Shown: positions 8,490 through 14,225 of the stretch, one piece after another
How positions within the stretch are numbered: position 1 is the first letter of the stretch
How the letters are laid out: each line of letters opens with the position of its first letter
Source: an uncultured Ruminococcus sp.
Lineage (GTDB): Bacteria > Bacillota > Clostridia > Oscillospirales > Ruminococcaceae
Length of the DNA: 41,294 nt
Direction: 5' to 3'
Assembly (NCBI GenBank): GCA_947169885.1
Contig: CAMVRM010000028.1
Location: 1-41,294 of the forward strand
Notes under the pieces: generated by a model
Told to the model about the DNA's origin: nothing
The model's database searches: none
What the model saw: the letters and a program-made list of their open reading frames with translations, nothing else
Made by a program: the position numbers and the translations under genes

Positions 8490-8786
8490 ATGACAACTAA
8501 TTTAAACAATAAAACTGCCGAAAAAAAACTAAACGGCGAACTTTCGCTCGATGAACTCAAAAATGTCAGCGGAGGCTGCAATATTTCGGAAAGCGGCAGC
8601 TACACAACGGTCACTTTAACTCGGGAAGAATACGAAAAGTTGCAGAGACTTATAAAAGATCCTGCCGCAGCAGAATTTTTGAAGCCTTATGGTCTGACCG
8701 CAGATGATCTTGCTATGACTATAACTCGTCCCACCGAGCAGATCAAAGATGTCTTACCGTGGCTTAAACTTCTGCCGCTTCTATGA
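8490..8786 (+). CDS. Double-glycine leader peptide precursor (bacteriocin/RiPP-like), orphan
   Basis: The 98-residue product begins with a 29-residue leader ending in LSLDELKNVSGG. This matches the double-glycine leader consensus recognised by C39-peptidase ABC transporters (Leu-Ser, then Glu-Leu, then Gly-Gly at positions -2/-1). Cleavage after Gly29 would release a 69-residue product starting with Cys30, the only cysteine. It is acidic to neutral and rich in Leu and Glu/Asp, ending in a hydrophobic WLKLLPLL. A good ribosome binding site (AAAGGGTGAT) and a terminator right after the gene show a self-contained unit. No C39 transporter, modification enzyme or immunity gene is in the window. 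The exported product could be a signalling peptide or bacteriocin-like protein; its role is unknown. Confidence 0.8.
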   Translation: MTTNLNNKTAEKKLNGELSLDELKNVSGGCNISESGSYTTVTLTREEYEKLQRLIKDPAAAEFLKPYGLTADDLAMTITRPTEQIKDVLPWLKLLPLL

Positions 8787-8897: not shown

Positions 8898-9464
8898 ATG
8901 ACACTTTTGGATCAGGCGATAATCTTTGCAGTCAAGGCTCACAGCGGTCAGAAACGCAAACAGAAAGGTCTGCCGTTCATCGTTCACCCCATGGAGGCGG
9001 CGGCTATCGCAAGTTCTCTCACTTCCGATGAAGAAGTTATTGCGGCGGCTGTTCTTCATGACACCGTTGAGGACACCGACACCACCGCCGAACAGCTGAA
9101 AGAATTTTTCGGCGAAAGAGTGGCGGCGCTCGTTGGTGCGGATTCCGAGAACAAACGTTCGGAACTGCCTGCCGCTCAGACATGGAAGATACGCAAGCAG
9201 GAGTCGCTCGAAGCCATGCGGAACGACCCCGACCCCGACTCAAAGATAATCGTGCTTGCCGACAAGCTCTCGAATATGCGCTCGATCTACGGTAACTGGA
9301 AAGTTATGGGAAATTCCGTCTGGAACGGCTTCAATCAGAAAGACCCCTCGGAACAGGCGTGGTATTACCGCTCGATAACCGATATTCTTTCGGAGCTGTC
9401 CGACACCGTTGCCTATCAGGAATACAAGCGGCTCGTTGACGAGATATTTGAGGGCGTGGAATAA
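8898..9464 (+). CDS. HD-domain hydrolase, small alarmone (ppGpp) hydrolase-like
   Basis: This 188-residue protein matches the hydrolase half of RelA/SpoT and the stand-alone MESH1/SAH enzymes that remove pyrophosphate from (p)ppGpp using Mn2+. The expected residues are visible in order: His in FIVHPMEAA, the HD pair and Glu-Asp in VLHDTVEDTDTT, and Asp in VLADKLSNMRSI. There is no synthetase, TGS or ACT domain, and the length fits a single-domain hydrolase. AAGGAGG precedes the ATG with normal spacing. The stop overlaps the next start as TAATG, so it is coupled to the PHP phosphatase gene. Whether the true substrate is an alarmone or another nucleotide cannot be told from sequence. Confidence 0.85.
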   Translation: MTLLDQAIIFAVKAHSGQKRKQKGLPFIVHPMEAAAIASSLTSDEEVIAAAVLHDTVEDTDTTAEQLKEFFGERVAALVGADSENKRSELPAAQTWKIRKQESLEAMRNDPDPDSKIIVLADKLSNMRSIYGNWKVMGNSVWNGFNQKDPSEQAWYYRSITDILSELSDTVAYQEYKRLVDEIFEGVE

Positions 9465-10303
9465 TGACGGCTGATCTTCACACTCACACGAACTACTCCC
9501 CCGATGCGAAGTCCTCGCCCGAGGAGATGTGCCGCCGTGCCGCCGAACTGGGGCTTAAATGGTACGCTGTCACCGACCACTGCGACTGCAACTTCTGGCT
9601 TCCCATTTCCGAACAAGACCGCAAAATAACGATCGACAAGGAAATGTACGGCTCTCGGGATTACGCTCAGGCGAGCATCTCGCACATCTCACGGCTGAAA
9701 GAGCAGTTCCCTTTCCTGCTGTGCGGCGTTGAACTGGGACAGCCTTTGCAGAATATCCCTGCCGCCGAAGTTATCCTTTCACGTCCCGAACTCGATTTTG
9801 TTATCGGCTCGCTCCACATGAACTCGGGGCGTGACGATTTCTACTGGCTCGATTACGGCAATATGACCCTCGCTGAGATCTACTCGCTCATGGAGGAATA
9901 CTTCTCCGAAATACTGGAAATGTGCCGCAAAGCCGATTTTGATGTGCTGGGGCATCTGACCTATCCGCTGAGATACATCACGGGTGAATACGGCATAACG
10001 CTCGAAATGGGGCGTTTTGATGACGTTATACGCAGTATATTCCGCACGCTTGCCGAGAACGGACACGGAATAGAGATAAACACCTCGGGGCTTCGTCAGA
10101 AGATAGGCAAAACGCTCCCCGACTTGGAGTATGTCAAGCTTTACCGTGAGTGCGGCGGCGAGATACTGACGATCGGTTCTGATGCACACAATTCGGGGGA
10201 CTTGGGCGCAGGGATAGAGTTCGGCGAGCAGACTGCCCGTGATGCAGGCTTTAAATACACCGCCGTTTTCCGTAACAGAAAGCCCGAATTTATAAAGCTG
10301 TAA
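9464..10303 (+). CDS. hisJ: PHP-domain phosphatase, HisJ-type histidinol-phosphatase family
   Basis: The 279-residue protein carries the PHP metal-binding signatures: DLHTHTNYSPD at the N-terminus, VTDHCD near residue 38, GSLHMN, LGHLTYP, EINTSGLR and a C-terminal GSDAHNSGDLG. This combination and length match the HisJ/HisK histidinol-phosphatase family, which converts histidinol phosphate to histidinol in histidine biosynthesis. No other his gene is adjacent, so another phosphoester substrate is possible. It is translationally coupled (TAATG) to the HD hydrolase. No plus-strand T-tailed hairpin follows directly; the first one is at 11527-11550, so this transcript may run into the next region antisense to the micro-ORF RNA. 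Confidence 0.85.
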   Translation: MTADLHTHTNYSPDAKSSPEEMCRRAAELGLKWYAVTDHCDCNFWLPISEQDRKITIDKEMYGSRDYAQASISHISRLKEQFPFLLCGVELGQPLQNIPAAEVILSRPELDFVIGSLHMNSGRDDFYWLDYGNMTLAEIYSLMEEYFSEILEMCRKADFDVLGHLTYPLRYITGEYGITLEMGRFDDVIRSIFRTLAENGHGIEINTSGLRQKIGKTLPDLEYVKLYRECGGEILTIGSDAHNSGDLGAGIEFGEQTARDAGFKYTAVFRNRKPEFIKL

Positions 10304-10306
10304 ACA

Positions 10307-10344
10307 CTAAAAAGCCCCGTGACCGAACGCCGATCACGGAGCTT
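10307..10344 (-). terminator. Minus-strand intrinsic terminator ending the micro-ORF transcript
   Basis: AAGCCCCGTGA (10312-10322) pairs with TCACGGAGCTT (10334-10344) with one mismatch. On the minus strand the stem is followed by five T (A run 10309-10313). No T run follows on the plus strand, so it is directional. Confidence 0.8.
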
Positions 10345-10353
10345 GTATCCGAA

Positions 10354-10362
10354 TTAAGCCAT
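10354..10362 (-). other. Two-codon micro-ORF (Met-Ala-stop)
   Basis: ATG GCT TAA lies 12 bases after AAAGG, a weaker spacing than the others in the array. It is the last micro-ORF before the terminator. Confidence 0.3.
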
Positions 10363-10400
10363 TGGAATAAACAACCTTTCAGTAGATTTTGAAAAGTAAC

Positions 10401-10409
10401 CTATCTCAT
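10401..10409 (-). other. Two-codon micro-ORF (Met-Arg-stop)
   Basis: ATG AGA TAG is preceded by AAAGGA nine bases upstream within the recurring AAAGGAACGAGTCCA context. Confidence 0.45.
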
Positions 10410-10440
10410 TGGACTCGTTCCTTTCGATATATTTTTGTCC

Positions 10441-10670
10441 TAATGTCAAGCTAAATTAGTCTTTGGACTCACCCTTTCCTGCTAAATATTCAGCCTCTTA
10501 CTTGTGAGCATTTTCATGATGCCTCACTCCTTTTCGGTAAATATCGCATACACTGTCATGCGCTCCGCAGTCTGTCTGTGCCGACCGTGACATTATCGGT
10601 CAGCCATGCACTGCGGTCATTCGCACCGTGCGCTTCATGGGTCAAGCTGTTTAAAGCTCGATATAGGTCA
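10441..10670 (-). repeat. Tandem RNA module, copy A
   Basis: This copy is about 230 bp and nearly identical over its first 120 bp to copy B (10671-10898). It contains one 11-codon micro-ORF, a CGCAT/ATGCG hairpin just upstream of the ribosome binding site, and a longer hairpin in which CCGCAGT pairs with ACTGCGG around the inner stem GACCG-loop-CGGTC. Confidence 0.75.
10482..10517 (-). CDS. Micro-ORF, MKMLTSKRLNI
   Basis: This 11-codon frame has AAGGAG nine bases upstream of its ATG. It is nearly identical to the micro-ORF at 10712-10747 (one residue, N versus D, differs) and sits in tandem module copy A. Confidence 0.45.
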   Translation of the reverse strand: MKMLTSKRLNI

Positions 10671-10898
10671 TAATGTCAAGCTAAAGTAACCTTTGGACTC
10701 ACCCTTTCCTGCTAAATATCCAGCCTCTTACTCGTGAGCATTTTCATATGCATCACTCCTTTTTCAGGTAAATATCGCATACACTGTCATGCGCCCGCAT
10801 CTGCCTTCGCTCCGACCGTGACATTCTCGGTCAGCCGACATCTGCGTTTCTCGCACCGTGCGCTTAGGGTAAGAGCGTTACCGCTCATTACAAAGTCA
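10671..10898 (-). repeat. Tandem RNA module, copy B
   Basis: This copy is about 228 bp and carries the second 11-codon micro-ORF. It has the hairpin GACCG-AGAATGTCA-CGGTC, a GAGCG-GTAA-CGCTC hairpin with a GNRA-type tetraloop near 10873-10886, and a CGCAT/ATGCG hairpin before the ribosome binding site. Confidence 0.75.
10712..10747 (-). CDS. Micro-ORF, MKMLTSKRLDI
   Basis: This 11-codon frame has AAGGAG eight bases upstream of the ATG. An in-frame ATG two codons earlier is too close to the ribosome binding site. It is a paralogue of the copy A peptide. Confidence 0.45.
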   Translation of the reverse strand: MKMLTSKRLDI

Positions 10899-11100
10899 TA
10901 ATGTCAAACTGAAATAACCTTTGGACTCACCCCTAACTCTTAGATATTCCGTCTTGAACCGGTACTCATTTTGATCATCAAGCACCACTCCGATCGTAAT
11001 ATTTTAAGGAAGCCTCTCGCCGCTCGTGCGCCTCTCTCTGAGCCTTTGCCCCGTGACATTATCGGGAACTGCTCCTGCACCGAGGGTGCGGCTTGAAGCA
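10899..11100 (-). repeat. Tandem RNA module, divergent copy C
   Basis: This copy shares the opening TAATGTCAA, the CCTTTGGACTCACCC motif and the general layout with copies A and B, but is diverged. Its central hairpin is CCCG-ATAATGTCA-CGGG: the loop is kept while the stem bases changed on both sides. It also has a GCACC-CTC-GGTGC hairpin, and GAGC/GCTC and GCCGC/GCGGC outer pairings. Confidence 0.6.
10940..10978 (-). CDS. Micro-ORF, MIKMSTGSRRNI
   Basis: This 12-codon frame has CGGAGTG with GGAG nine bases before the ATG. It occupies the same place in module C as the 11-codon frames in A and B, and shares the Lys-Met start and terminal Ile. Confidence 0.4.
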   Translation of the reverse strand: MIKMSTGSRRNI

Positions 11101-11121
11101 TTATGTTCAAAGTTCGAGCCT

Positions 11122-11178
11122 CTATCTCAGGCTATTGGCAAACCAGCCGATCAAAAAGTATAACATTACCATTTTCAT
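11122..11178 (-). CDS. Micro-ORF, hydrophobic 18-residue peptide
   Basis: MKMVMLYFLIGWFANSLR is the longest and most hydrophobic peptide of the array, with a core (VMLYFLIGWFA) that could insert in a membrane. AAAGGA lies eight bases upstream and overlaps the stop of the preceding micro-ORF. It aligns in position with the MKM-starting frames of modules A and B. Confidence 0.5.
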   Translation of the reverse strand: MKMVMLYFLIGWFANSLR

Positions 11179-11183
11179 AAAAA

Positions 11184-11222
11184 TCATCCTTTACGATAAA
11201 TGATATGTTTTGGATAGTACAT
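11184..11222 (-). CDS. Micro-ORF, MYYPKHIIYRKG
   Basis: This 12-codon frame has CAGGAG eight bases before the ATG. Its upstream sequence (GTCAGGAGTG, TTCCCATGTACTA) duplicates that of the Met-Tyr micro-ORF at 11324-11332, but here the frame stays open because TAA is replaced by TAT. Confidence 0.45.
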   Translation of the reverse strand: MYYPKHIIYRKG

Positions 11223-11241
11223 GGGAATCACTCCTGACTTT

Positions 11242-11274
11242 CTACGGGATCGTAAACCTCTTGAATGCTTTCAT
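11242..11274 (-). CDS. Micro-ORF, MKAFKRFTIP
   Basis: This basic 10-codon frame has GAAGGAG ten bases upstream of the ATG. Confidence 0.45.
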   Translation of the reverse strand: MKAFKRFTIP

Positions 11275-11323
11275 AGAGCAACAACTCCTTCACGATCTTG
11301 ATCTTGTCGGGGGAAAATTCTGC

Positions 11324-11332
11324 TTAGTACAT
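11324..11332 (-). other. Two-codon micro-ORF (Met-Tyr-stop)
   Basis: ATG TAC TAA lies eight bases after CAGGAG. The same ribosome-binding context is duplicated at 11220-11236. Confidence 0.45.
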
Positions 11333-11348
11333 GGGAAACACTCCTGAC

Positions 11349-11384
11349 TTATTTAATATCCGTTAGTTTAAAGAGGACTTTCAT
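11349..11384 (-). CDS. Micro-ORF, MKVLFKLTDIK
   Basis: This 11-codon frame has AAGGGAG nine bases before the ATG. A longer in-frame version of 25 codons from an ATG upstream lacks a ribosome binding site. Confidence 0.45.
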   Translation of the reverse strand: MKVLFKLTDIK

Positions 11385-11429
11385 AAGACCCCACTCCCTT
11401 ACGAATAGTTTTCTTAAAAAAGTCATTGA

Positions 11430-11438
11430 CTACTGCAT
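11430..11438 (-). other. Two-codon micro-ORF (Met-Gln-stop)
   Basis: ATG CAG TAG is eight bases after AAGGGAG, an optimal ribosome binding site for a frame that ends after two residues. Confidence 0.45.
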
Positions 11439-11454
11439 CGGTAACACTCCCTTG

Positions 11455-11490
11455 TCATGATTTATCAGGTCTGAACTTCCTTTCGATCAT
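11455..11490 (-). CDS. Micro-ORF, MIERKFRPDKS
   Basis: This 11-codon frame has AAGGA ten bases before the ATG, one of the weaker sites of the array. Confidence 0.35.
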   Translation of the reverse strand: MIERKFRPDKS

Positions 11491-11526
11491 GACTACCACA
11501 TCCTTGCTTCGGATATATTTTTCTTT

Positions 11527-11550
11527 ACGGTCAGCGACCGTTATTTTTTT
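11527..11550 (+). terminator. Plus-strand intrinsic terminator inside the micro-ORF region
   Basis: ACGGTC-AGC-GACCGT is followed by TATTTTTTT on the plus strand. No plus-strand gene precedes it closer than hisJ, which ends at 10303, so it may end hisJ read-through that is antisense to the micro-ORF RNA. On the minus strand it is a plain hairpin. Confidence 0.65.
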
Positions 11551-11757
11551 GAGAAGAGCCTGCGATCTGTGCCGCAGATTAAATTGTTATCAAGATGTTG
11601 TCTTGTCTTTTTAAAGCAGAGTACAAGCTGTAATATCGTTGTGTTAAGACCGTCGTAACTGAAACTCGCTTTGTCTTCGCTAATGATTTGAATCAGAGGG
11701 AAGCGGACTGCTCACATCATTCTGATGCCGTCCTGTTTACTTTAAGCCCTCGGTGAG

Positions 11758-11808
11758 TCAGACATCTGCGAGTTCCAGAGAACTCTGCTGAATTTCAGAT
11801 GCATCCAT
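11758..11808 (-). CDS. Micro-ORF, 16-residue acidic peptide
   Basis: MDASEIQQSSLELADV is the first micro-ORF of the predicted transcript. AAAGGAG lies eight bases upstream in the AAAGGAGCGAGTCCA context that recurs through the array. Confidence 0.5.
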   Translation of the reverse strand: MDASEIQQSSLELADV

Positions 11809-12026
11809 TGGACTCGCTCCTTTCGGTGGATTAACAGCTTTGCGGTGCGTCCCGAGCATTGTTAAGTCTGGCAGGGATCTGCCCGATCCGTCAGCTTCCG
11901 CTCGCTGCCGATATGCTATGAAAAGCTCCGACCCGATACAGCCGCCCCTCAGCCCTTCTGTAAGTTCCCACTCTCTTCAGGACCCTTGTGCTGTTCTTTT
12001 TAGGTGTTCTGCTTTTCTATGTTCTT

Positions 12027-12055
12027 AGTATACCACACTTCTTGTCGCTTGTCAA
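12027..12055 (-). promoter_or_regulatory. Promoter of the micro-ORF RNA
   Basis: On the minus strand TTGACA (12055-12050) and TATACT (12032-12027) are 17 bases apart. It is divergent from the DUF1292 promoter 70 bases away, with which it shares the bases AAGTGTGGTATA before and into the -10. Confidence 0.88.
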
Positions 12056-12124
12056 TAGATTTTCTCAAATTTTCTTAAAACATTTTGTGCAAATTTTTAT
12101 TCGACTTTTTGGTTATTTTTTTGC

Positions 12125-12153
12125 TTGACAACGGTTTGCAAGTGTGGTATAAT
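12125..12153 (+). promoter_or_regulatory. Promoter of the DUF1292 gene
   Basis: TTGACA (12125-12130) and TATAAT (12148-12153) with a 17-base spacer form a perfect consensus. The predicted transcript starts near 12160, leaving a leader of about 80 nt. Confidence 0.9.
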
Positions 12154-12238
12154 ATTCGTGAGCGGTATGGGATACCGCAGGAAAGGTAAAGGCGCAAGCC
12201 GGTGGTCGGTGGTGTTGCCTTACGGAAGGAGAATGCTC

Positions 12239-12559
12239 ATGTCTGATGAGATCATGAACGGAATGAACGAATACACCCCCGATATTTACACTCTGGAGGA
12301 CGATGAAGGCAACGAACAGGCTTTTGAACTGCTTGACGTTATGGAATATGAGGGCGAAAAGTACTTCGCACTTACTCCTTACTTCGATGACCCCGAGAAA
12401 CTGCTCGAATATGACGGCGAGGTCGTTATATTAAAGAGCGAGTTCGAGGGCGATGATGAGATGATGGTGACTATCGAGGACGATGCCGAATATGAACGTG
12501 TCGGTGCGGTGTTCATCGAAAGGCTCAGAGAAATGTATGATTTTGAGGACGAGGAATAA
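12239..12559 (+). CDS. DUF1292 family acidic protein
   Basis: The 106-residue, strongly acidic product matches the DUF1292 family common in Firmicutes: YTLEDDEGNEQAFELLDVM, then GEKYFALTPY and VVILKSEFEGDDE. Family members are small cytosolic proteins of unknown function, often found near ruvX and fur genes, which are not seen here. GGAAGGAG seven bases upstream supports the ATG at 12239. The ATG at 12233 is too close to the ribosome binding site, and the long open frame from 12125 starts inside the promoter. Confidence 0.85.
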   Translation: MSDEIMNGMNEYTPDIYTLEDDEGNEQAFELLDVMEYEGEKYFALTPYFDDPEKLLEYDGEVVILKSEFEGDDEMMVTIEDDAEYERVGAVFIERLREMYDFEDEE

Positions 12560-12576: not shown

Positions 12577-12789
12577 TATACTATTATTAAGTAAATAAAG
12601 ACTGCGGTGTACGTTAGTAAGGGTTCAATTTAATCCAACACTTATGTAATCAGGGATTCGCACTCCGTAAGATAATGCAGACCTCCCGTTCGGCACCCCG
12701 TGCAAACGGCCGTGTAAAACCGAAACGGACGAAGGGAGCGTGATTCTTAAGGGTCGTCTTACCCGTCCTGCTTTTGCGGGTTTTATTTT
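12577..12789 (+). ncRNA. Structured RNA of about 200 nt, 6S-like candidate
   Basis: A -10-like TATACT (12577-12582) without a clear -35 is followed by a sequence rich in pairing, ending in an intrinsic terminator at 12761-12789. The ends pair (AAGAC 12598-12602 with GTCTT 12756-12760). GATTCGCACTC near 12655 pairs 9 of 11 with GAGCGTGATTC near 12736. CTCCCGTTCGG pairs with CCGAAACGG and GGGAG around a GCAC-CCC-GTGC apical hairpin. A side hairpin TTAGTAAG/CTTATGTAA lies near 12614-12652. A long, interrupted rod of about 190 nt is what 6S (SsrS) RNA looks like, but I cannot confirm the family; a regulatory leader for the next gene is the alternative. Confidence 0.5.
12761..12789 (+). terminator. 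Terminator of the structured RNA
   Basis: ACCCG (12761-12765) pairs with CGGGT (12777-12781), followed by TTTATTTT. Confidence 0.7.
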
Positions 12790-12835
12790 CCCTTACGACG
12801 GCATTGCGGTCTTTTTTTATTTAGGAGGTAGGCAG

Positions 12836-13337: not shown

Positions 13338-14225
13338 ATGCCTGAGGAGAAAAGCACGAAAGTTACGATAGACGGTGACACCCTTGTGCGCTACGAGGGC
13401 GCTGACAGAGAATTTGTTATCCCCGACGGTATACGAGTTATCGGGAAACACGCTTTTTCCGATAATATGACCCTTTCTTCGGTCACTGTGCCGCACGGGG
13501 TCGAGGTGATCGAGGAGGAAGCCTTCGCCGAATGCAGGGCACTCAACGAGATACACCTCCCCAACACCGTTGACACGATAGGCAGATGCGCTTTCACACG
13601 CTGTCAGAGCCTTATAAGCATCGAACTGCCCGTCAGCGTCAAGGACTTCGGCGAGGCGGTCTTTCGCTACTGCACACGGCTTTTAAGGGTCGAACTGCCC
13701 GTCAACATCAAGGAACTGAAAGCCGCCACTTTCGAGATGTGTACTTCCCTCGAGGAGATAGAAGTCCCCGACAGGATACGCAACATCGGTGAGGGGGCTT
13801 TCAGAGGCTGTTCAAATCTGCGCAGGGTCGAACTGTCGGTAAAGCTTGAAAAGATAGGCAAACAGGCGTTCAAGGACTGCACGGCGCTCACCTCGATACA
13901 GCTCCCCCACTCGCTGGGATTCATGGGCTACGATTCGCAGGGGGCGTTTGACGGCTGTACTTCGCTGGAACGTATCGAGATAGGTTCTGACACCTATTTT
14001 GACCCCGACTGCGGCATTTTCGACCACTGTCCCAAACTGCTGGACATTCGCTATCAGCATCTTGACGATCCCGACAACATAAGAGTTTTCCCGGCCTACT
14101 TAAAGAAGATACGTGAACGTCAGATAGAATGGCAGTCGCACAAAAAATGCACCTACTGCGGCGGCGACTTCTCAGGCGTGATAAAAAAAGTCTGTCGTGT
14201 CTGCGGCAAACCCAAAGCGTACTAG
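13338..14225 (+). CDS. BspA-like leucine-rich repeat protein with C-terminal zinc ribbon
   Basis: Residues about 20-250 of this 295-residue protein consist of about nine LRR_5 (BspA/Treponema type) repeats of about 23 residues, with the pattern aFxxCxxLxxIxLPxxvxxIG. The C-terminus carries two CxxC pairs (CTYCGG and CRVCGK) that would form a zinc ribbon. There is no signal peptide, sorting motif or membrane segment. It should therefore be cytosolic, unlike the many secreted BspA-like surface proteins. The role is probably protein binding. AAAGGAGG lies ten bases before the ATG. Confidence 0.8.
   Translation: MPEEKSTKVTIDGDTLVRYEGADREFVIPDGIRVIGKHAFSDNMTLSSVTVPHGVEVIEEEAFAECRALNEIHLPNTVDTIGRCAFTRCQSLISIELPVSVKDFGEAVFRYCTRLLRVELPVNIKELKAATFEMCTSLEEIEVPDRIRNIGEGAFRGCSNLRRVELSVKLEKIGKQAFKDCTALTSIQLPHSLGFMGYDSQGAFDGCTSLERIEIGSDTYFDPDCGIFDHCPKLLDIRYQHLDDPDNIRVFPAYLKKIRERQIEWQSHKKCTYCGGDFSGVIKKVCRVCGKPKAY

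Follow-up and report, generated by a model that had tools for sequence, protein, structure and literature searches.

Conserved arrays of Shine-Dalgarno-led start sites and start-stop minigenes in Ruminococcus: a candidate ribosome-loading RNA

What could be the role of a transcription unit that has its own promoter and terminator, many translation start sites and no conventional gene? The question is raised by a 41,294-nucleotide (nt) stretch of DNA from an uncultured Ruminococcus sp. (assembly GCA_947169885.1, contig CAMVRM010000028.1, positions 1 to 41,294), referred to here as the window. The unit in question is the stretch of its minus strand from a promoter at 12055-12027 to a terminator at 10307. 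A first-pass annotation of this DNA described nine short open reading frames (ORFs) in the unit, each preceded by a Shine-Dalgarno (SD) sequence, and proposed a dual-function RNA, a peptide array or a translation-sensing leader cascade. Comparison with related genomes indicates that the unit is a conserved array of SD-led micro-ORFs and two-codon minigenes. This anatomy is well supported, and from it we infer expression, translation and a mode of action. The reading favoured here, with a little less than even confidence, is a stand-alone structured RNA of ~1.0-1.9 kb that would carry a string of ribosome start sites, many spaced by ~52 nt, and would load and quickly release ribosomes.

The unit is conserved across the genus. 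A BLAST search with the unit finds homologous DNA in 13/13 genus genomes, its own included, and finds no second copy in its own genome, where it occurs in one place only. The layout of promoter, array and terminator, which the first-pass annotation had suggested seeking in related Ruminococcus, is present in all 13 genus loci. Each is headed by a TTGAC..TA...T promoter and ends, as judged by eye in the alignment, in a G+C hairpin followed by a T run. In the window, the sigma-70-type promoter (12027-12055, minus strand) reads TTGACA-17-TATACT with a TG ahead of the second hexamer. It matches 11 of 12 consensus bases, so that it is a very good promoter but not the perfect one that had been claimed. 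The intrinsic terminator (10303-10344, minus strand) has a 15-pair stem at 10344-10312 and the tail TTTAGTGTTT. By themselves, promoter-like sites (5 against a shuffle mean of 5.5) and terminator-like sites (3 against 4.3) are no rarer than chance. The gene beyond the terminator varies among genus genomes and lies in either orientation.

The number of SD-ATG pairs in the unit is far above that of shuffled sequence. An SD 4-mer lies 5-10 nt before an ATG at 15 places, against a shuffle mean of 3.39 (standard deviation 1.73), and 0/300 shuffles reach this number. The strand opposite the unit has no SD-ATG pair. In each of the 13 genus loci, the observed number is reached by at most 2/300 shuffles, or by at most 3/300 when stricter SD words are used, and the opposite strand carries 0-2 pairs. 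This excess on a conserved minus-strand unit upholds the earlier view that the pairing is not that of decayed DNA. All nine ATGs of the first-pass annotation exist with frames of 10-18 codons. For eight of the nine, a script finds an SD-like word at an upstream distance of 8-10 nt, but it scores the ATG at 11384 with AAGG at 12 nt; by eye, GGGAG lies 9 nt upstream of this ATG. Four two-codon frames had been overlooked, at 11438 (MQ-stop), 11332 (MY-stop), 10409 (MR-stop) and 10362 (MA-stop), and the last two are among the best-kept parts of the unit. The 18-codon frame at 11178 has no counterpart seen in the other 12 genus loci.

The micro-ORFs of the genus are grouped into classes A to D and two minigenes, E1 and E2 (coordinates in this paragraph are on the minus strand). 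Class A is MDVSEIQQSSPRLAEV-like, has 16-17 codons and is present in 13/13 loci. In the window it is ORF A (11758-11808; MDASEIQQSSLELADV), the first SD-led micro-ORF, with an acidic N-terminus; other genera have comparable first ORFs, alike in length and in their acidic start. Class B frames (MK...RFT.I-like and others) mostly have 10-13 codons and are represented by MIERKFRPDKS (11455-11490), MKVLFKLTDIK (11349-11384) and MKAFKRFTIP (11242-11274). Class C frames are of the ATGTAC type, often MY-stop alone, and in most loci they start 51-57 nt past a class B start. The window has the class C minigenes MQ-stop (11430-11438), which starts 52 nt after a class B start, and MY-stop (11324-11332), and the micro-ORF MYYPKHIIYRKG (11184-11222), which begins with ATGTAC. 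Class D frames (M....RRNI-like, 10-15 codons) are MIKMSTGSRRNI (10940-10978), whose start codon, judged by eye, is probably in a hairpin loop, MKMLTSKRLDI (10712-10747) and MKMLTSKRLNI (10482-10517). The window holds three related units ~230 nt apart. A module motif without an ATG, GGGGTGAGTCCAAAGG, is found at 10918-10933, with further copies at 10690-10705 and 10460-10475. After the ATG-less copies of the motif GTGAGTCC comes AAAG, or in other genera a sequence such as CACC..GGTG, which could form a small hairpin. Minigene E1 (10401-10409) is MR-stop, written ATGAGATAG, and either ATGAGATAA or ATGAGATAG is present in 13/13 genus loci. Minigene E2 (10354-10362) has two codons in 12/13 genus loci; it reads MA-stop in 11, MV-stop in L038 and MVK-stop, with three codons, in L039. 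Its stops include TAA, TAG and TGA.

In the sequences compared, the minigenes conserve a start codon and a quick in-frame stop while the residue between them drifts. The frame test used sites made of GG, 4-10 bases, YCC, one base and ATG, and a stop was sought at codon index 1-4 in each frame. The comparison was confined to these indices in all frames because frame 0 can hold no stop at the ATG. Sites with identical context were counted once, and ORF A was removed from the genus and other-genera sets and kept in a set of 40 family loci. Early stops in frames 0, 1 and 2 are found at 33, 10 and 9 of 47 genus sites (Fisher p 1e-8), at 45, 7 and 6 of 54 sites from 20 other-genera loci (p 2e-19) and at 30, 11 and 9 of 61 sites from the 40 family loci (p 7e-6), all three p values taking related sites as independent. 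An earlier frame test, with stops within four codons, gives 34/50, 21/45 and 9/43 by frame for the genus, 46/67, 19/66 and 11/66 for other genera, where ORF A removal missed copies. A separate count over the 40 family loci, with ATG-made frame-1 stops left out, gives 30, 8 and 9 of 61 sites. The stop codons of the minigenes are TAA (50), TAG (20) and TGA (19). Their second codons are diverse (TAC 16, GCT 14, AGA 10, GAA 9, GCA 8 and others). Because the second codon drifts, the minigene peptide is probably not the point. Each genus locus has 2-4 strict minigenes, and loci of other genera have 0-7.

The arrangement of minigenes differs among individual loci. Locus L113, from another genus, has a run of MDS, MER, MER, MDKL and MDR, each followed by a stop, 106-113 nt apart. 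Locus L118, also from another genus, has seven minigenes 52-65 nt apart. A start codon followed immediately by a stop (ATGTAA or ATGTAG) occurs after an SD-like motif in L141 (959), L143 (921), L151 (828) and L160 (513; divergent-strand coordinates).

The array extends beyond the genus, and within the family it is associated with a gene of the DUF1292 family. In the window, this gene (12239-12559, plus strand; PF06949 match at 12302-12526) is the divergent neighbour of the unit. A DUF1292-type gene, with the sequence ..YTPDIYTLEDEDG.., is divergent to the unit in 12/13 genus loci (Pfam match for genomes G000 and G002); in L039, the array is ~20 kb away from that genome's DUF1292 gene. A strict 24-base pattern occurs in the own genus only (8/396), and a pattern scan of named genomes gives 12 matches, all Ruminococcus. 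The genus-only result of the 24-base pattern is a limit of the pattern, because R1, a sequence-only model of the D module, reached other genera. At E<=1, R1 matches 67/138 family genomes, many with single weak matches that could be chance. When two tables are compared, at least 31 of these 67 genomes have a match within ~2 kb of a DUF1292 gene, on its divergent side.

The 40 family loci were sampled by the DUF1292 gene and not by array content, and were taken in order of DUF1292 score. Already-fetched R1 loci were omitted, so that arrays are under-represented in the sample; G111, G084, G050, G063, G028, G091 and G036 were also skipped; several of the 40 had weak R1 matches. In these loci, the divergent strand has 61 motif sites and the other strand has 8; a minigene is found on the former in 19/40 and on the latter in 1/40. 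Outside the family, 20 order loci (one each from 20 of the 21 other families; G420 was omitted and L165 is only 514 nt) and 20 class loci (20 of the 48 DUF1292-matching genomes outside the order) were compared. Minigenes beside DUF1292 on the divergent strand are found in 0/20 order loci and 0/20 class loci, so that the link of the array to this gene mostly does not hold outside the family. A minigene-like site is on the other strand in 2/20 class loci, and the core motif is on the divergent strand in 2/20 order loci. A looser count of SD-led frames before the next long ORF, divergent against other strand, gives 48/11 for the family, 3/5 for the order and 0/4 for the class.

Array-like sequences were located with R1 in two further families, f22 and f6. 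The f22 arrays are beside DUF1292, in L182 with ORF A and in L203 with MYT-stop and MYS-stop. The f6 array, in L205, has MG-stop and MY-stop. At E<=0.1, R1 matches 8/59 genomes. Two of these (G000 and G074) are from the own family, three (G421, G436 and G500) have array-like sequences and one (G498, locus L204) showed none; the remaining two, G495 (L206) and G442, stand outside this breakdown. The arrays of L107, L109, L112 and L113 are near contig ends, as repeats are. Genome G114 has R1 matches near the ends of two contigs, so that in some genomes the array may be present more than once.

Compensatory changes in conserved helices, the mark of a structured RNA, are found in two hairpins of the array. 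The first, P1, has a covarying stem and the loop segment AAUGUCA, and occurs in the window at 11046-11070, 10811-10835 and 10580-10604 (minus strand). All 25 D units, located via the downstream motif, have a P1 with this loop segment upstream. The 25 hairpin copies reduce to 23 unique ones, a chance AATGTCAC match in L048 being excluded. Among them, pairs 4, 5 and 6 are formed in 22, 23 and 20 copies, against shuffle means of 10.1, 12.2 and 12.8, and pairs 7 and 8 are no better than shuffles. An ungapped P1 alignment was discarded because it misplaces stems with 10-nt loops, and such stems were placed by rule. An alignment of the D units omitted one of the 25 copies (L041:2452-2577). The RNAalifold consensus of the D domain consists of P1 and a weak 3' hairpin. 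A contact between the P1 loop and its downstream complement is likely because UGACAUU (UGGCAUU in one L042 copy) recurs 141-179 nt downstream of the loop. In the window, this complement, TTGACATT, is at 10900-10907, 10672-10679 and 10442-10449 (minus strand).

The second hairpin holds the start of ORF A in its loop. The SD-proximal arm GCGAGTCC (11810-11817, minus strand) pairs and covaries with the in-ORF arm GGAACTCGC (11768-11776, minus strand). ORF A loci were selected by two criteria, a length of 15-28 codons and the presence of an acidic residue among the first 8, which gave 39 loci; the hairpin test used one locus for the genus and 26 others. Over these 27 loci, the pairing of the SD-ATG spacer with the in-ORF segment has a mean of -10.2 kcal/mol for the own ORF and -8.7 kcal/mol (standard deviation 0.35) for foreign ORFs, and 0/20000 permutations are as low. 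For example, the arms read GAGUC/GACUC, GAGCC/GGCUC or GUGAUUCC/GGAAUCGC. Pairing is poor in L116, L126 and L158. A long-range helix is also likely, between ORF A and a site that lies 163-204 nt downstream of the ORF A start codon. In the window, ACTCTGCT (11615-11622, minus strand) is complementary to AGCAGAGT in ORF A (11782-11789), and the arms differ together in L040, L043, L047 and L048. The 3' end has the order GAAAGG, CUUU, GAAAGG with small variants (GAAGGG in L048), so that a single partner might be contested between the final two SDs. By eye, the ATGs of classes B and D appear to sit in hairpin loops. Pairing of the SD (GGN) with the NCC ahead of the ATG, as a mini-hairpin, was considered and is not claimed; its third pair fits at 101/149 sites, only slightly more than the 93.8 averaged by shuffles (p 0.048).

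The spacing of the start sites suggests how ribosomes might be accommodated. From 11490 to 11222 in the window, the intervals between starts are 52, 54, 52, 58 and 52 nt. By raw counts, with no shuffled control, 36/100 neighbouring start intervals in the genus and 23/77 in other genera are 48-58 nt; L111 has seven consecutive intervals of 49-54 nt. The footprint of a ribosome is ~30 nt. Side-by-side loading would be feasible because 52 nt exceeds this footprint. Pairing with the 16S tail has a mean of -12.2 kcal/mol for nine window sites and -9.7 kcal/mol for 15 hand-picked ordinary ORF starts of the window. When the UCC is included with the SD, pairing with the 16S 3' end has a mean of -12.4 kcal/mol at 112 sites against -10.3 kcal/mol with shuffled spacers, a test biased by the YCC-demanding site pattern. 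Such extended pairing is a lead only.

Under the favoured reading, the RNA would be transcribed from its own promoter and ended at its own terminator. Ribosomes would load side by side at several sites, make peptides of 2-18 residues and stop. Plentiful free ribosomes would stay on the RNA and hold its hairpins and loop contacts open, and when ribosomes are scarce the RNA would refold. ORF A, with its ribosome-binding site folded against its own codons, may act as a gate. The RNA would trap, store or report free ribosomes, and possible outputs are ribosome storage, a supply signal or protection of the RNA. A more specific version, which is doubtful on present evidence, is a new RNA class, a 'ribosome rack', in which ribosomes would be held at spaced minimal ORFs and the fold would track the number bound, so that free ribosomes are stored or measured. 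The rack would be encoded beside 6S RNA, whose role towards RNA polymerase is comparable. Covarying structures surround the start sites, which agrees with the earlier suggestions of a dual-function RNA and a translation-sensing cascade but does not demonstrate either. The peptide array fits part of the unit at most, as minigenes keep their in-frame stop while the second codon drifts.

Several observations weigh against the favoured reading. No minigene was seen in 21/40 family loci. Two thirds of the start intervals fall outside 48-58 nt. When stops made by ATGA are counted, frame 1 of the 40 family loci has 29/61 stops and frame 0 has 30/61. Some copies of the GTGAGTCC motif carry no ATG, and the motif is therefore not solely a start site. 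The minigene spacers have no covarying local partner within 55 nt on either side in a search of 113 minigenes (834 and 793 of 2000 permutations are as good). In ORF A, codon pairs that differ by a single base are synonymous in 109/227 cases in frame, against 45/198 and 45/166 in the other frames, and the class B and D frames retain the C-terminal patterns RFT.I and RRNI. These last two observations fit useful peptides.

A polycistronic peptide gene is the main rival, and we regard it as rather unlikely. The unit would be an mRNA for short peptides (ORF A, class B MKV..RFT.I and class D M....RRNI) with a role inside or outside the cell, in which the minigenes only couple or space translation. 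The synonymous excess in frame 0 of ORF A favours this, as does the presence of ORF A in 13/13 genus loci with similar first ORFs elsewhere, where an acidic residue was part of the filter. The class D frames (10-15 codons) end at a shared landmark, and by eye their lengths differ by whole codons. However, the class B and D peptides diverge widely even inside the genus, and the ORF A peptides of other genera share little past the acidic start. Of 11 columns in ORF A, 5 vary at the first codon position, 6 at the second and 7 at the third, so that third-position bias is nearly absent; the codons of ORF A are also located in helices. The two-codon frames hold little peptide information, and their second codon drifts.

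An untranslated structural RNA is unlikely. Its GG-GUGAGUCC-RAUG modules would be protein or RNA docking sites that mimic start sites. The covarying structure and the motif copies without ATG are compatible with this, and the array sites contain GGA, as do CsrA sites. It does not explain the enrichment of stops in the ATG frame, which uses all three stop codons. As for docking of CsrA, PF02599 is found in 0/13 genus genomes, against 3/14 control genomes, and a CsrA sponge is excluded for the genus.

A leader or attenuator acting in cis on a neighbour, by terminator read-through or a shared divergent promoter region, is improbable. The divergent DUF1292 gene of the 12 genus loci, and its proximity to the R1 match in at least 31/67 genomes, speak for such a link, and the two-codon minigenes described so far exert a cis effect on the gene that follows them (PMC8708949). 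Read-through, however, cannot reach a divergent gene, and the array of L039 is ~20 kb from its DUF1292 gene. Beyond the terminator, different genomes have different genes, in either orientation. The leader cascade proposed in the first-pass annotation is less likely because no gene downstream is conserved. Chance, a decayed gene or a repeat is suggested by the three related copies ~230 nt apart, a duplication in the window, and is extremely improbable, being contradicted by the SD-ATG excess, the genus and family conservation, the frame-specific stops and the covariation.

The array shares features with several known systems and differs from each. Two-codon minigenes are known, the lambda bar minigene being one type. 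In the leader minigenes axe-txe mg2 and LEE1, ribosome binding or peptidyl-tRNA drop-off affects RNA or translation; a ribosome bound to a strong SD ahead of a mini-ORF can shield the RNA against RNase E, and a tRNA can be depleted by minigenes (PMC8708949). As in the axe-txe type, an SD, an ATG, one or a few sense codons and an in-frame stop are kept by selection here. Minigenes of that type affect a single gene in cis from within its leader, whereas the array has its own terminator and no conserved following gene. OLE, GOLLD and ROOL are likewise long stand-alone structured RNAs of unclear function; the array has no Rfam match, and start and stop codons are kept in it. RNAIII and SgrS are dual-function RNAs, and to our knowledge the known members of this group carry one or a few ORFs. 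VcdRP, another of them, combines RNA structure with a short ORF (PMC8672173), as the array does with a series of ultrashort ORFs. Leader-peptide attenuators resemble the array in having short ORFs whose translation would alter hairpin pairing. Unlike them, the array has no conserved gene behind its terminator, and no runs of one amino acid's codons are seen among the genus micro-ORFs. CsrB-type RNAs, which sequester CsrA/RsmA, have many repeated GGA-containing sites, as the array does; in contrast, the genus genomes have no CsrA (0/13) and the array sites have frame-specific stops.

At gathering scores, Rfam searches of the window and 20 related loci find only 6S RNA, RNase P RNA and the S-adenosylmethionine (SAM) riboswitch, none of them inside the arrays. 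At a relaxed threshold, the best match in 10280-12250 has 16.2 bits against a threshold of 65. The accessible text of open-licence papers, a search that left bioRxiv preprints outside, contains no description of such arrays, and a description elsewhere is possible. As far as open-licence papers show, the conservation of a whole series of start-stop frames within a single RNA is undescribed.

Several other features lie near the unit. The 6S RNA of the window (12596-12816, plus strand; RF00013, 46.6 bits against a threshold of 46.4) is just downstream of the DUF1292 gene, and 6S RNA is found in 10/20 related stretches, each only 2.8-5.8 kb long. No tRNA or transfer-messenger RNA was found within the window. 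A 98-codon ORF (8490-8786, plus strand) starts with MTTNLNNKTAEKKLNGELSLDELKNVSGG, which we take to resemble the double-glycine leader of a peptide precursor. It is followed by a gene at 8898-9464, presumably for an HD-domain hydrolase. On the other side, an ORF at 13338-14225 (plus strand) starts with MPEEKSTKVTIDGDTLVRYEGADREFVIPDGIRVIGKHAF and presumably encodes a leucine-rich-repeat (BspA-type) protein.

If ribosomes load on the array, the ribosome itself would be the partner of a natural RNA. Two questions would then become directly testable in rumen and gut bacteria: how spare translation capacity is sensed and what purpose two-codon ORFs serve. Even as a peptide gene, the array would be a hidden family, with ORFs so short that ordinary gene callers would miss it.

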